64,000 nucleotides of DNA, taken from contig NZ_JAGGMN010000001.1 of NCBI RefSeq assembly GCF_017875325.1, positions 1 through 64,000 on the forward strand, given 5' to 3'. The translations under genes and the position numbers were made by a program. The number at the start of each line of letters is the position of its first letter. Position 1 is the first letter of the stretch. This DNA is from Methanofollis sp. W23 (GTDB lineage Archaea; Halobacteriota; Methanomicrobia; Methanomicrobiales; Methanofollaceae). Shown piece after piece: positions 19,856 to 62,231 of this stretch. The notes under the pieces were generated by a model, which did no database searches, was not told the DNA's origin, and was given only the letters and a program-made list of their open reading frames with translations.

Positions 19856-20674
19856 GGCTCTGTTGAATCAGGCATGAGTCGAGAGCACGCCTCAGGCATA
19901 CCGCATGAAAAGTTTTTCCATGAAAACCCCCTTCCATCCAAATTCCTTCAGCTCTTAACTAAAATCTGTTCTGAGTTCTCTTTGATTTACAGTCTGAGGG
20001 ATCTTGGATCTCTCATCTTCCTCCCTTAGAACCTCTCGCGGATACGAAACGCATCAATTTCCAATAGAGAATGAGTTTGTGCTCGATCGCTTTCGCTCAA
20101 GGATCGACCTGACGAGATCAGGCGTGTCTGTTCTCTTTAGACCGGATCCGGATCGCGTTTCTTGAGGACAGCGAGTGCATCTGCTACGAGAGTAATGACC
20201 TCTTCGAAGGTGTAATGCGGCGATGCAGGGATTCTGATGGTATGAAAATTCTCTGTTTGAGGTTTTTCTTCTGGTTGAGTTTACCTATCGACGTATTCTT
20301 CATCATTGACGATCAGGTGCCAGATGATGGTGATTATCTTTCTCGCCAGAGCGATGATCGCTTTGCTTGCTCCAATCACGTGCTTCTTTGCTTCATACCA
20401 TTCTCGAAGAACATTTTTTTGTGCTCGTGTTGCAGCATGAGCGACCTGGTTCATGATCCATCTGGCATGTTGTTGAACCCCGTTTTGTGATCGAACAGTT
20501 TACAGTATGGTTCGCAGATTGGTACATCCTGGCCAGCAGCAACTTGGTACGGCGCGGTCATATCCAGTTTCTTCTGAAAATGATGGGATAGATGAATGTC
20601 TGTGGCGGTCTTTTTTCCATACGCGATCAAAGTCGCAGTTCAGCCTTCGAGGGCAATTCAACGGTTACTATCAT

Positions 20675-22280
20675 CCTAAGTTTGCCACTTTGGGTTCAAA
20701 CACCCAATGAGCTCATCCACTCTTGTGATCTACATTTTCCAGAATTTCACTTGGATACTGTATTTGACAGTTGAAGAATTTCCCCTCAAAATTTCATGAA
20801 ATCGCCCACTTATGATACAAAATCATCGTGTTGATGGCATCAAAATTCGAGTGAATGAACCTTTTTGTCTTTCTCTTCCACGAATCTATGGTAACTGTCA
20901 AATTCAATAGCGCCTTTTTGATGAATTTTGTTGACGTATGCTTCAGTTCCGGGATCTCAAATCTGATCATTGAGACAAATAACTGCGCAATAAACCCTAT
21001 GATTAACGCACCGTAAATGCTGTTATCTGTCCATACCCGCAATGGTTTGATCTCTATCTCATTCTTCAACGAGTTGAAGATCTTCTCGATTGAATCCTTT
21101 TTTCGGTATGTGAGAAGGGCTTCAGTAAGTGTCAAATTCTTACTTGATTTCAGGCAGAAAAACCCCTCTCTGCCGATGATGAACTTCTCTTCAAGGAGTT
21201 TGATGGCATCATTTTCCGAGAGTTCAACCAGTTTGGTCTGAATGGAGTAGTCCACATCAACAAGAAAGTTGTTAATCCGAAATCGCTTTGGGAGACTCTT
21301 ATTCTTCTCAATACTTTCCTGAATGGTTTTCGCTTCTTTTATCTGTCACACAATTTTTCTGGCTCTGGATTCCAACTGTTCTTTCTGTAACTTTTCTGAG
21401 AAGTAGAGATAATTGGTACTGTTTGGTTTCTCAATTTTTATCCCACGAATTCCTGATTCCGCATCAATAACATGAGGGCCATACGTTTCAAATTCAGCAA
21501 TGATCTTGTCATCACTCTTGTTGAGTTTCTTTCCGGTAATGTACTGCAGATTATCTGCCCGAATCATCCGGGTATTGGCGACACTATTCGCTCCTTTGTC
21601 GAATATGACCAGAGATCTCTCTCTGAGTCTGCCGCTTGATTGTCGATGGGTCTTCTTGAAGTGGCTCTGATCATTGAGATTGCCGGGTTCGATCGTCATC
21701 CCAATCGGGATATTGATGGGATCGGCAAGTTCGGTGACACCGACCGTAATCTGTTTTTTGTCCGGCCGATGATCACGGCTGTAGCCATATTTTCCAAGAT
21801 GAGCCTCAGTGCCATGAAGAACGATGCTGGTCCAGTCCATGTTGATGTTGGTATGCTCAAAATTATATCGCTCAAAAAGGACGTCCTGGATGTCAGAGAT
21901 GATTTCATCCCGGTTAGCACCAAGGATTTCAAGGACACGATACAGTGTTCTTTCGCTGAATGGGGGGAGATCAAATTCAGCAAGAACTTCAGGACGGTTG
22001 ATCCATTCGTGAGACCGTTTTATGCTGAAGTTATCAGTCAGTTTATAGCTAACAAGAGCTTTGAGGAGTTTGTTGAGATCTATCTCATTTTTTTGTGTTT
22101 CCCGAAAATCTCGGTGAAATTGAGAATCTCATAAAGTCGGGTAACGGCAAAGAGGGTTCCAATGGGAAAAGATATATTTTCATTGGGCTCAATCTGAATA
22201 GTTCTTAGTTCTGTTTGCATTTTGGTCGATTCAAGCATTACTAAGAACACACTTAGTTTTTTTCGACTGGCAAAGTTAGG
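20675..22280 (-). mobile_element. IS1634/IS4-like insertion sequence inside the IS110 remnant
   Basis: Inverted ends CCTAAGTTTGCCACT (20675-20689) and, on the minus strand, CCTAACTTTGCCAGT (22280-22266) match at 13 of 15 positions and bound 1606 bp. Flanking TATCAT and TATAAT may be a worn 6-bp target duplication. The element carries one transposase gene, now broken. Confidence 0.72.
20794..22220 (-). pseudogene. IS1634-type transposase with frameshift and nonsense codon
   Basis: Starts MQTELRTIQIEPNENISFPI. A frameshift near 22090 (in an A-rich run) diverts the frame, after which it resumes as IDLNKLLKALVSYKL, MDWTSIVLHGTEAHLGKYGYSRD, LVIFDKGANS and QYITGKKL. A TGA follows ARKIV near 21347, then the same frame continues through DYSIQTKLVELSENDAI, YRKKDSIEKIFNSLKNEIEI and RVWTDNSIYGALIIGFIA to its end. 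The order matches IS1634-type DDE transposases of the IS4 superfamily. Two lesions make it inactive. Confidence 0.82.
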
Positions 22281-22414
22281 TATAATGTAAGAAGACCGGG
22301 GCGATCATCTGGAAAACGTTTGATCCAGAACTCTCCAGAGTTCGAGAGAACAGCAGCAACAAAGAAGGTCTTGTGGACATCGATCCCACAAACTTTACTT
22401 CGTTGAAGTGACAT

Positions 22415-22606
22415 GGGCCTCTCCTAGGGGAGAGAAATGTCCCTCAAAGGCAATTTACCATTCGCGTTCAAAGACGCACGTATGCTTTTTAAATGGACAT
22501 AAAGCTAGATACTACAACAGGATTCAGATCCCACAAACTCGACAGCTTTCTCTCCCCATGAACCGCCAAAGAAACCAGATCATATTTCGAGTTTTTCATC
22601 CTGTAT
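22415..22606 (-). other. Non-coding end of the IS110 remnant
   Basis: About 190 bases upstream of the IS110 transposase start without an open frame. In IS110 elements this end encodes the bridge RNA that pairs with donor and target DNA. Short self-complementary strings are present (for example CCTCTCCTAGGGGAGAG near 22418-22434), but no bridge RNA fold was worked out. The transposase is dead, so any RNA would be a relic. Confidence 0.3.
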
Positions 22607-22649
22607 GCTTGAGCCCGGGGTTCATGCCCGATTCAACAGAGCCAAAGAT

Positions 22650-23369: not shown

Positions 23370-23932
23370 ATAACCACAAATTATATTTGTAATATTACTA
23401 TTAAGAATGTTACTATTGAAGACCTGTGGAAACAGAGCAGGACACCATCGGGGGAACACCACTCACCTGCCGCACCTCACCTCTCCTCACCGCGGGGGGG
23501 TCCGGGGGTGCAACCTCCAGCGCGAGATTCCAAGAAAGATTCTACGATTGGGGGCGGCACACCTGATTGATCATCACGCCTTCCCACACCATCGGCCGGG
23601 GGCGCTGCCCCTGGATCCCCGGGATGAAGATAGGGTGGGGAAGGCAGAACGCCGATCATGCTGAAGGCGCATCTATCATCTGCATACCATCTTCAACGAT
23701 ATAAGGCTGGTTCAAATTCTCATGCAAATCCGGAGAGTAATCGTCAGGATCATTCATGGTGCTGGCTTGAAAGCCCCTTCATGTGCGTTTCAACAGAACC
23801 TGTCAAACAAGTCTTTGGTGGACGGGACGAGATATTTGGGGATCATTTTATCGCAACTATGGTTTACTCGATCATGTGGCAGGAACAACCATATGAGCGG
23901 TGGGCGATTTAGGGCGTGCTCTTGATATGACT
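23370..23932. other. Intergenic mosaic of dispersed repeats
   Basis: Holds a hairpin-forming GC-rich module (CCGGGGGCGCTGCCCC near 23590-23606), a module CCCGGGATGAAGATAGGG (23618-23635) that recurs near 33299-33316, and, on the minus strand at 23650-23760, a copy of the 100-base relic also found at 39685-39776 and 61851-61976. No intact gene. Confidence 0.6.
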
Positions 23933-31375: not shown

Positions 31376-32583
31376 GGTCAGTCCTCAAATGAAAGAAGGT
31401 TAAAATTCTCGATCAGTAAACTTGGGGGATATGTTGAGTCTTTGTTATTGAATGTGTATCGATTCATGTCTTCTATTACAAGAAGTACGTGAGTACAACC
31501 TAAGGACCACCCCTCAAGGTCATCTGTGTCTCTATGCATCCTGGACGATCATACCTGGGTCGAGGGCGGCGGTGACGGACTCTTTCTCTCAATGAAGATT
31601 TTGTGCGAACGATCTTGCTCCTGATTAGATGCGGAGTCTTTTTCATGCGGGTTTCGATAAAGATTTGGATTTTTCTCAGGGGAAGGGGATTCATTCAAGA
31701 AATTCAGGGGGTAAAAAGTGCAGGAGTGAGTAGATGTCTTCTTGAAGAGGGAGGACGGGTCGCATGCCCAAACCGCCGGCAAGGATGAGGGTCTTCATGG
31801 AGGGTCGGTAGGATCTGGGCGCGGGAGAGGATGAGGGTCTTCATGGAGGGTCGGTAGGATCTGGGCGCGGGAGAGGATGAGGGTTGCGGTTTTTGTCTGC
31901 GGTGTTTCGGCGTCGGCGATTGCTCACGTCGGTCTCAGTGGTGAGGAGAGGAGGATGAAGGACAGGTGGACTGGCGCAGATGATCCTCGTGATGGCAGGA
32001 TTATTATCTGAATCGCTCATCGAACGAATACTATCTCGGATGCCGATAAAAAGAATTAATATCGGCTGTGTAGAAACCATCATCTCTTCCAGTGCACGCG
32101 TGACTCGCCCACCTTCCCCCCTCTTTGGCCGGGGGCTTGCCGCCCCTCGTCAGAGAGGATTCAGCCGTCTTAAGGGAAGAGTCATGAAGATCGTTGATCC
32201 ATTCTCCTCCCGCTCTCCTGGACCAAAGAGGTCACAAAGCCTGGTCTTTATTCCCTGCCTTCTCTGAGATCTGTTTAATCTAGAAGGCATCTCTCTGTAC
32301 AATTGTACACCTCCCCGGCCAGTTCTTCTCTTGATCAGATTTCAATCTCATCTGACTCTTCTTGGACATGCGGCTCCCTATACATAATTGCGGCAAGTCT
32401 ATGTCCAGCATCTCCCTGAACGATATCCCAAGGTCACGGTATCCTTGATATCATCGACTTTGAGTGTATCTGGGATCTGCGTTCAATGGAAGATAGTACG
32501 ATCTGGCTCCTCTTCTGATTCACCATGGGATATGATAATCAGCATGGAAGAACTATTGCCCTATAATTGAGGAGGAACCAGGC
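31376..32583. other. Intergenic region with tandem repeat and mobile-element traces
   Basis: Over 1.2 kb with no supported gene. It holds a 46-bp tandem repeat (31784-31880), a worn GGCTGTGTAGAAACC terminal repeat at 32064-32078 followed by the hairpin module GCCGGGGGCTTGCCGCCCC (32128-32146), and a perfect 14-bp palindrome TGTACAATTGTACA (32297-32310). Confidence 0.6.
31784..31880 (+). repeat. 46-bp tandem repeat, just over two copies
   Basis: Units begin GATGAGGGTCTTCATGGAGG at 31784 and 31830, and a third partial unit begins at 31876. The first two appear identical, so the duplication is recent. It has no coding role that can be seen. Confidence 0.85.
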
Positions 32584-32793
32584 ATGCGGGTGCAGTATAT
32601 CTATGATGCAGAGGGACGAAGGACTGGAGTGATTGTACCTATCGATCTCTGGTACTCGCTGGGTATTGAAAAATCTGTAGAAAAAGAGTGCGGGATCAGG
32701 GAACCAGAAAAATATCGAGGAATATATCGATCCCTCAAGGTCGATCTGAAAGATGAACTTCGAAAGATGCGTGATGAATGGGACCGACTATGA
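32584..32793 (+). CDS. Antitoxin of a VapBC-type pair
   Basis: Sixty-nine residues beginning MRVQYIYDAEGRRTGVIVPI, a short beta-rich N-terminus of the sort that binds DNA or dimerises, and ending in a charged helix (VDLKDELRKMRDEWDRL) suited to wrap the toxin. A good GAGGAGG ribosome-binding site precedes the ATG. The stop overlaps the PIN toxin start by 4 bp. The exact antitoxin family was not identified. Confidence 0.8.
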   Translation: MRVQYIYDAEGRRTGVIVPIDLWYSLGIEKSVEKECGIREPEKYRGIYRSLKVDLKDELRKMRDEWDRL

Positions 32794-33182
32794 GACGTTT
32801 CCTCCTCGATACCAATATTCTTATCTATTATCTTGCAGATGCCATACCATCTGAGAGCCTGGATGAGGTTGAGGATATGTTGACCTCTTCGTTTCGCATC
32901 TCGATCATCACAAAGATTGAGTTTCTTGGATGGAAAAAACACACCCCGGCAGGCTACGAGGTGGCTGAAGAGTTCATCCGATCTGCAGAGGTATACCCTC
33001 TGACAGAAAGAATTGCGGACACTTCTATCCATTTGCGTCAAACATATGGGATGAGACTTGCTGATGCTGTTATTGCGGCCACTGCAGTGGTTCATGACTG
33101 TGCACTTGTCACCCGGAATGAGGATGACTTTTCCAGGATATGTACACTTGAGATAGTGAACCCGTTCAACAAAGAAGAATGA
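32790..33182 (+). CDS. PIN-domain toxin (VapC-like RNase)
   Basis: 130 residues with the PIN fold signature: LLDTNILIYYL (first catalytic Asp), a central Glu in ITKIEFLGW, and RLADAVIAATAVVHDCALVTRNEDDF with the remaining acidic residues. Such toxins cleave tRNA or rRNA unless bound by the antitoxin. The ATG at 32790 sits in an ATGA overlap with the antitoxin. All catalytic residues are present, so this pair appears intact, unlike the MNT/HEPN pairs nearby. Confidence 0.9.
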   Translation: MRRFLLDTNILIYYLADAIPSESLDEVEDMLTSSFRISIITKIEFLGWKKHTPAGYEVAEEFIRSAEVYPLTERIADTSIHLRQTYGMRLADAVIAATAVVHDCALVTRNEDDFSRICTLEIVNPFNKEE

Positions 33183-33223
33183 CCTGGGGCTGGAGTGAAA
33201 AATCTATAAAACAGTGGAATATG

Positions 33224-33438
33224 GGCCCTGTAGAAACCCGTACCAATTCTTGGTGTGAGCGCGATTCAAGCGCCTTCCCACATCGAATGCACCGGACTCC
33301 CGGGATGAAGATAGGGCCGGGAAGGCACACTCAATCGTCATGAAGAGCGTAATGCCGTCTGCCACTAATCGCGCGCGGGGTCCGGGGGGCGGCACGCCCC
33401 CTGTCAAAGATACCTGTCCTGAGGATTTCTACAGAGCC
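33224..33438. mobile_element. 215-bp MITE with 16-bp TIRs and 8-bp target duplication
   Basis: Left end GGCCCTGTAGAAACCC; right end, read inward on the other strand, GGCTCTGTAGAAATCC (14 of 16 match). The octamer GGAATATG occurs directly on both sides (33216-33223 and 33439-33446), a perfect target-site duplication. The interior has the hairpin module GGGGGGCGGCACGCCCCC (33380-33397) and a segment, CATGAAGAGCGTAATGCCGT, that recurs at 61764. An 8-bp duplication and GGC-initiated ends fit IS6-type elements; no IS6 transposase is in the window. Confidence 0.82.
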
Positions 33439-33462
33439 GGAATATGGGTTTTTTGATTTCAA

Positions 33463-33621
33463 GGCTCTGTAGAAACCCTCATCTGTCGTGGGGAGCATGT
33501 GCGTCCCCCTCGCCTTCGTATAACTTCTCACCGGGGGCGAATGCCGCCCTGGGAAGATCTCTGATCTTCGAGTGGCAAGCCCCATGCCGCAGAGACTCAT
33601 CAAAAAGATTTCTACAGAGCC
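33463..33621. mobile_element. 159-bp MITE of the same family
   Basis: Ends GGCTCTGTAGAAACCCTCAT and, on the minus strand, GGCTCTGTAGAAATC. The interior has the GGGGGCGAATGCCGCCC module (33534-33550). It lies 24 bases from the previous copy. There is no exact target duplication, though TTTTTTGATTTC on the left and TTTTTTTATTTC on the right look alike. Confidence 0.72.
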
Positions 33622-54142: not shown

Positions 54143-55005
54143 GGATGCTCCGTTAATTCGTGGATTTCTGGCGTGCTGTCTGGAATTTTGATGGAATGAT
54201 TGCACATAATCTGATCATTTAATCGGATATAAATTATTCCAATTTATATTTCAATCCCCTGTAAGTATTATGCAAAATATGATGGAATTTGGGTATAATT
54301 CGGGAATTATATAGTGCCCCTTAAATCTCGCGACTGATCATTTTTTCTCGAATACATCGTCATGCAGTCCTGGATGGGGGAAGGACGTGAATGGGGGCAT
54401 TAAAAATGAAGAATAACGCGCAAAACCGCGCTGCATCGAAATATGTCCGGTGTGGCGGTACAGGATCTCGTCCCCAGAATTTCAGGTCAATGCTCCTGGG
54501 GCGACCGCCTGAGACCGGTCTTTTGGCCCTGTCATGAGCCGATCTCAGGATCGTACTCATAAAATGCAATTTTTGGTTATGGAGGTCATCCAAACACTCT
54601 CCTGCTTTCTCACTCCCTGAAAATTCGTTACCCACCTATGGGTTCATGCCCTCCCCTACCACCGCGCCAGGGGCGCTGCGCCCCCTGACCCTCTGGGATG
54701 GCGAATGGGGCGGGAGGACAGAGTGATGATCGTGAAGACAGGATGCGGTTCCCCCGCCAATTTTCATTCGCGGGGGTGCGGGAGGCGGCCAGCCCCCCGT
54801 AGCGAGAACCATCAAGAGGCGATCTACAACGCCGGAATATCTGGAAGGAGGCGCTGAGGTCCGAGGAGATGCTCACTCCAGGAGCGATGTGGGGATATGT
54901 TCATCGAAAAATACTCTGTGCCGATGGCGTGAACCCCTGCCCGCTCTCCCGCCAAAAAAAGCCCGGCCCTGTAAGCCGGGGTTCAGGGCGGCGGTGAAAG
55001 ACGAC
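54143..55005. other. Intergenic region: promoter plus repeat debris
   Basis: The left part holds a TATA box for the surface protein gene (AATATAAATT on the minus strand, 54241-54250), with a leader of about 75 bases. From 54640 to 54900 lie GC-rich hairpin modules (CCAGGGGCGCTGCGCCCCCTG near 54665) and a copy of the GGAATATCTGGAAGG core. The gene downstream ends at 55006, preceded by a G/C-rich inverted repeat (GCCCGGCCCTGTAAGCCGGG, 54961-54980) that could act as terminator. Confidence 0.6.
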
Positions 55006-61577: not shown

Positions 61578-62231
61578 TCCCGATCTGTCGTGGCAGATCC
61601 CCTCCCCTGCTGGGTGGATGACAGGAATGTTCAGCGGACCTGCGTCATCTTACAAAATACGATTCTGTAGAATCCCTCACCATTCCCCCCTCTCTGGCCG
61701 GGGGCGCGTGCCGCCCGCACCCCCATGAGGAAGAGAGGGCCTGGAAGACATATTCAATCACCATGAAGAGCGTAATGCCGTCCACCGCCTCTCGATCGCG
61801 TGGAGAGGCGGGAAGATGACTCAGTTGCCCCTTGGGGAAATAGGCAAAGGGTTTACCATGAACATGATCCTGACGATACTCTTTCCTGGTTTTTATGAGA
61901 ATTTGAACCATCCCGATTTCGTCGAAGATGATATGCAGATGAGAGAGACGTCTTCAGCATGATCGGGTGTGCCGCCCCAGATCGTAGAATCGTCCCTGCC
62001 ATCTCGCCCTGGGAGCACTCCTCCTGGAGGTCCCTCACGGCGAGGAGAGGGGTGGGGCGGCAGGTGAGTGGTGTCCTGCGCTCACGCGGGGGCCTGGAGA
62101 CCCACTCATCTTCGTCCCGTATGCGTGAACCAGGGGTTCATGCCTGATTCTCCAGGGCTGATTTATCCCTGCCCCTCTCTCCTGATCAGCGAGAGATGGG
62201 GGTGATCGACCCCCTGCAGTTCTGGGAAATT
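61578..62231. other. Intergenic element of the GGCTCTGTAGAA family with inner relics
   Basis: No gene. A left terminal repeat GATTCTGTAGAATCCC (61661-61676) and right end GATTCTCCAGGGCT (62146-62159) bound about 500 bases. Inside, in order: hairpin module GCCGGGGGCGCGTGCCGCCC (61696-61715), CATGAAGAGCGTAATGCCGT (61763-61782), the CATGATCCTG relic (61851-61976) and the hairpin GCGTGAACC/GGTTCATGC (62123-62143). Confidence 0.65.
61851..61976 (+). repeat. Copy of the CATGATCCTG relic repeat
   Basis: Most complete copy. It contains a 35-residue frame starting MNMILTILFPGFYENLN; the minus-strand copy at 23650-23760 has a matching frame beginning MNDPDDYSPDLHENLN. Similarity covers about 100 bases, ending in CTTCAGCATGATCGG. 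Confidence 0.72.

Follow-up and report, generated by a model that had tools for sequence, protein, structure and literature searches.

What kind of element is the 215-bp unit that lies between two identical octamers in Methanofollis sp. W23, and which enzyme moved it? We addressed this question in the window, i.e. the whole stretch of 64,000 nucleotides that was analyzed, and then in the genome and the genus. Re-reading of the sequence at 33216-33446 gave the unit, its inverted ends and the flanking octamers exactly as an earlier sequence-only reading had described them:

33216..33223, no strand: left target-site duplication GGAATATG, read from the sequence
33224..33438, minus strand relative to the 232-bp consensus: copy of the MITE family that we call family A, 215 bp
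33224..33239, plus strand: terminal inverted repeat GGCCCTGTAGAAACCC, corresponding to the IS5 tip upstream of the transposase gene
33423..33438, minus strand: terminal inverted repeat GGCTCTGTAGAAATCC, counterpart of the IS5 tip next to the 3′ end of the transposase gene
33439..33446, no strand: right target-site duplication GGAATATG, read from the sequence

The two tips are identical at 14 of 16 positions (GGCCCTGTAGAAACCC against GGCTCTGTAGAAATCC, the latter as the reverse complement), and the family A profile matches 33224..33438 over model positions 1-232 with an E value of 2.4e-45. The interior is hairpin-rich and devoid of coding capacity of note, and no Rfam family was found for this copy. 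A PIN-domain (VapC-like) gene occupies 32778-33182, the MITE unit being located about 40 bp downstream of it. Other matches of the profile in the window comprise one internally deleted copy and several fragments:

33463..33621, minus strand: family A copy no. 2, 159 bp, internally deleted (model positions 142-232 and 1-52)
32064..32145, minus strand: family A fragment with one tip (GGCTGTGTAGAAA), profile E 8.4e-11
23575..23691, minus strand: family A internal fragment, profile E 7.1e-19
54647..54832, minus strand: family A truncated copy, model positions 2-185, profile E 8.3e-23
61667..61811, minus strand: family A fragment, model positions 54-226, profile E 4.6e-19

Both tips of copy no. 2 are perfect, and its duplication is not recognisable (4 of the 8 positions are mismatched). 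With at most one mismatch allowed, the tip GGCYCTGTAGAAA occurs 5 times in the window, versus 0.10 expected. The confident family A matches add up to about 0.9 kb of the 64-kb window; the earlier suggestion that a MITE family explains much of the intergenic DNA here was therefore too strong.

The size of the family was estimated from an 800-kb sample of the genome, taken as 40 stretches, and from tip counts over the whole genome. At one mismatch or fewer, the 13-base tip GGCTCTGTAGAAA was found 237 times on the forward and 246 times on the reverse strand of the 2.9-Mb genome, while the same pattern read backwards gave 0 and 2 matches. A consensus of 232 bp was derived from 29 copies of 222-240 bp (mean column conservation 0.81); identity in this set is 94% for the closest pair and 70% for the median pair, and the divergence of copies from the consensus ranges from 9 to 30%. 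The family profile gave 331 non-overlapping matches in the 800 kb, covering 46 kb (5.8%, fragments included), and 214 matches (36.5 kb) at E below 1e-10; it had no match in the reversed 800-kb sequence. Most of these matches are truncated, and 80 are near full length (at least 200 of the 232 model positions). When extrapolated to the whole genome on the basis of length or of tip counts, these figures point to roughly 240-290 near-full-length copies, plus many fragments. That the unit defines a MITE family, as proposed from the sequence alone, is thus borne out by about 480 tips in the genome and the 80 near-full-length copies in the sample; other bounded copies exist. Furthermore, the family is present in 11 of the 12 genomes of the genus. 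One of them, G001 (an assembly of 2.4 Mb, 81% complete), contains 319 + 326 tip matches, more than the window's genome.

We then considered how the copies are bounded. Exact 8-bp flanking repeats were observed in 20 of 92 neighbouring inward-facing tip pairs in the 800 kb, whereas re-pairing the flanks of the same 92 pairs gave an expectation of 0.06; exact 9-bp repeats were absent. These data indicate that the duplication and the boundaries are properties of the family. In the 29 copies, divergence was not correlated with the number of duplication mismatches (Spearman 0.08, p 0.69), and decay of the duplication was for this reason dropped as a measure of age. The joined flanks of six copies were also searched across the genus for empty orthologous sites. 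Four sites proved empty in at least one sister species, each with a single octamer-like sequence:

189426-189599: empty orthologue in G001, octamer exact
909090-909321: empty orthologue in G001, one octamer-like sequence
120082-120347: empty orthologue in G009 and G002, one octamer-like sequence
702973-703093: empty orthologue in G004, one octamer-like sequence

Hence, a single octamer-like sequence and not two is present at the orthologous sites of four other copies, and together with the 20 exact octamers this upholds the claim that the unit moved as DNA with an 8-bp duplication. For copies inserted in other repeats, uninterrupted related copies exist in the same genome. The window's own site has no empty orthologue that we could find in the genus, and it is occupied in G005. 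The G005 sequence matches at 95% identity as far as the octamer (GGAATATC) and then continues (L184:1670-1807) with a 138-bp unit of the same tip type, with a differing interior and the left octamer only. The two units may go back to a shared insertion that later changed or to separate insertions at one target. Among sites with 0-1 duplication mismatch, 11 of 33 fall in open frames that are 150 codons or longer, versus 489 of 600 random positions. Taken together, the abundant tips, the 8-bp duplications and the empty sites in sister species show that the 215-bp unit is a MITE and a member of a large family.

One copy, G000:C1:795652-795883, is nested inside another dispersed repeat, which contains TTTACCATGAAAATGATCC and has many related copies; this repeat may represent an element family of its own, with different tips.

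A search of the genus with PF01609 recovered DDE transposase loci that are enclosed by tips of the MITE type. These IS elements, 954-1008 bp in length, are bounded by the tips GGCTCTGTAGAAACCCT / GGCTCTGTAGAATTCCT or slight variants of them and flanked by exact 8-bp duplications:

G005: IS with MITE-type tips, 1008 bp, duplication GAACAATC
G009: IS with MITE-type tips, 954 bp, gene disrupted
G003: IS with MITE-type tips, 1007 bp, three loci

The G005 transposase belongs to the IS5 family according to the NCBIfam model NF033579 (transpos_IS5_2), with 237 bits for a cut-off of 140. Relatives of this IS5_2 transposase at 54-66% identity were found in Methanoregula-type MAGs and in Methanolobus, and in two of the Methanoregula-type MAGs they are bounded by the same tips and by exact 8-bp duplications. 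Of 18 tip positions, 14-17 agree between the IS and the MITE consensus. Moreover, the two ends differ from each other in the same way in the MITE and in the IS, one being AAACCC-like and the other AATTCC/AATCC-like. The duplication is 8 bp long in both, and the target is of a similar type: the duplications have a common symmetric AT-rich G..C profile, the IS set being limited to n=7. The 8-bp duplication suggests the ISH1 group, to which we presume that the partner IS5-family element belongs. Beyond the tips, no convincing similarity was found between the MITE interior and the IS, so the view of the MITE as a deletion derivative of the IS lacks support. These comparisons make it very probable that the unit is an IS5-type MITE, most likely moved in trans by an IS5_2 transposase whose source has since decayed. 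It is this transposase, judging from the sequence comparisons, that probably moved the copies studied here. Elements of other types in the genus, however, have tips of about 13 bp in common with them, and a different transposase reading similar tips could therefore have moved some of them.

A rival view is that several IS5-like or other DDE transposases (IS5_2, IS5_3, others) with near-identical 12-13-bp tips acted at different times and that the family has no single autonomous parent. Two elements fit such a history. In G005, a 1488-bp element that encodes an IS5_3-like transposase is bounded by tips GGCCTTGTAGAATCAGGC / GGCTCTGTAGAATCAGGC and by the exact duplication GATAATAT, and a 1395-bp unit of G006 has tips TGCACTGTAGAAAACC / TGCTCTGTTGAAATCC, also with an exact duplication. 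Positions 14-18 of the consensus tips (ACCCTC / ATCCTC) nevertheless agree more closely with the IS5_2 tips than with the CAGGC type, and we regard a multiple parentage as unlikely.

Other candidates for the partner were discarded. An ISL3-type partner was rejected, PF01610 being without match in the window's genome. The PF01609 gene in 19856-22643 was rejected as well, since it is IS1634-like and has an internal stop codon and its unit is without duplication. The unit at 19856-22643 itself is 2788 bp long and has near-perfect tips GGCTCTGTTGAATCAGGC; the IS1634-like transposase in it is broken, and an 8-bp duplication is absent. Over its outer 50-60 bp this unit shows 90-94% identity to the 1488-bp G005 unit (L102). 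The G003 genome is rich in active-looking IS, with 48 PF01609 matches including many identical copies, and it has only 8 MITE-type tip matches at one mismatch.

The hairpin-rich interior also raises the idea of a structured repeat retained by the host (REP-like or with a function at the RNA level), for which transposon ends would be only the origin. The 232-bp consensus folds at -125 kcal/mol, the window copy (33224-33438) folds as RNA at -84.2 kcal/mol and is modestly more stable than its shuffles (z -2.4), and the presence in 11 of 12 genomes points to long persistence. Against this, RNAalifold gave almost no consensus structure (the alignment is poor there, which makes this not a strong negative), the copies lie 9-30% off the consensus and most profile matches are truncated; retention by the host is thus very unlikely. 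An origin from an IS6-family element, as assigned by the sequence-only reading, is the least credible of all: the 8-bp duplications and the GG-starting tips with a CTGT motif do resemble IS6 tips (PMC7986276), but searches with PF13610 (IS6/IS240) gave no match either in the window's genome or across the 12 genomes of the genus, the few distant PF13610 loci in the order have no such tips within about 1.5 kb, and the elements of the same genus that do carry the same tips belong to the IS5 family.

Returning to the IS5_2 transposase as the probable mover, we looked for its source in the window's genome. NF033579 had no match there. A weak match in a protein search corresponds to a 157-bp IS remnant (C1:1034476-1034632), a fossil in which two pieces of the transposase gene are joined by a deletion and which ends in an intact 18-bp tip. 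This fossil was all that the NF033579 and protein searches found of an autonomous partner in the window's genome, and the family therefore looks orphaned there, while the autonomous IS is intact in sister species. In G001, only a 43-45-residue remnant of an IS5_2 transposase was found. An autonomous partner in the same genome is not required for MITE status and bears rather on current mobility. Since the IS is present only as a fossil and the 29-copy sample contains no near-identical pairs, movement of the MITE has presumably ceased.

The following mechanism is proposed. The MITE would consist of two transposase-recognition tips of about 17-18 bp around a gene-less, hairpin-rich filler. The IS5-family DDE transposase of an IS of about 1007 bp would bind both tips and either cut the unit free or copy it. 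The unit would then be inserted at an AT-rich octamer (GAAATTTC type) by joins staggered by 8 bases, and repair of the stagger would yield the 8-bp duplication. Later decay of the autonomous IS to the 157-bp fossil would have left a large, diverged family with no recognisable transposase source.

A larger unit of 1998 bp at C1:652756-654753 is built from two equally oriented family A copies and a partial one, arranged around an acetyltransferase gene. The product of this passenger gene has double GNAT acetyltransferase domains, and the gene has 35% G+C versus 59% G+C for the region. The outer flanks of the composite share TATTTTGT exactly and the inner flanks do not. Because re-pairing of flanks predicts 0.12 exact outer matches among the 75 pairs of that size class, the duplication by itself is no more than suggestive; considered with the composition and the layout, it tips the balance in favour of movement of the passenger. 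More tentatively, we put forward that an orphaned IS5-type MITE family, with a copy number well above that of the cited archaeal families, may have mobilised foreign genes as composites, the 1998-bp unit being the first case.

With this analysis, a very abundant archaeal repeat is reassigned to another transposon family, and its probable mover is identified. Family A is also a clear example of MITEs that have survived their transposase in one genome, whereas sister species retain an intact autonomous IS; cross-mobilisation and the fate of orphaned MITEs can thus be put to the test. Since the family makes up about 5-6% of the sampled DNA, it can be expected to confound the prediction of genes, the annotation of repeats and the comparison of strains in the genus.

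Prokaryotic MITEs, archaeal ones included, are well known, and family A is thus a new family of a known class, unusually numerous for an archaeon among the cases compared. An earlier description of it was not found in the literature searched, the coverage of which is incomplete. Its closest counterpart is the IS5 family defined by NF033579 (transpos_IS5_2), with which it shares the 17-18-bp tips, the 8-bp duplication, the AT-rich G..C target and the genus; in contrast to the IS, the MITE has no transposase gene and its interior is unrelated. The IS6 family resembles it in the 8-bp duplication and in GG tips with a CTGT motif, but has cTGTt / caaa motifs where the MITE tip is CTGTAGAAA, and no IS6 transposase was found in the genus (PMC7986276). 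The TIME-COMPs are like C1:652756-654753 in having two miniature elements around a passenger and an outer duplication only, but they are bounded by Tn3-derived elements, whereas the composite here has IS5-type tips, is archaeal and is a single predicted example (PMC13367494). Among bacteria, ERIC reaches 711 copies in Photorhabdus luminescens, and the 235-bp Chunjie MITE of Geobacter uraniireducens is accompanied by another 37 copies with tips (178-235 bp) and by 57 partial copies (PMC10969869). Chunjie is like family A in its size, its internally deleted and partial copies and its intergenic location; it differs in its host and its far lower copy number, and the likeness rests on features other than the tips. 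The MITEs SM1-SM4 of Sulfolobus solfataricus, with 25-44 copies per family (PMC10969869), are likewise short, gene-less, tip-bounded, dispersed and dependent on a transposase acting in trans, but their tips are different, and family A has several-fold more copies in a genome where no intact partner IS was found.
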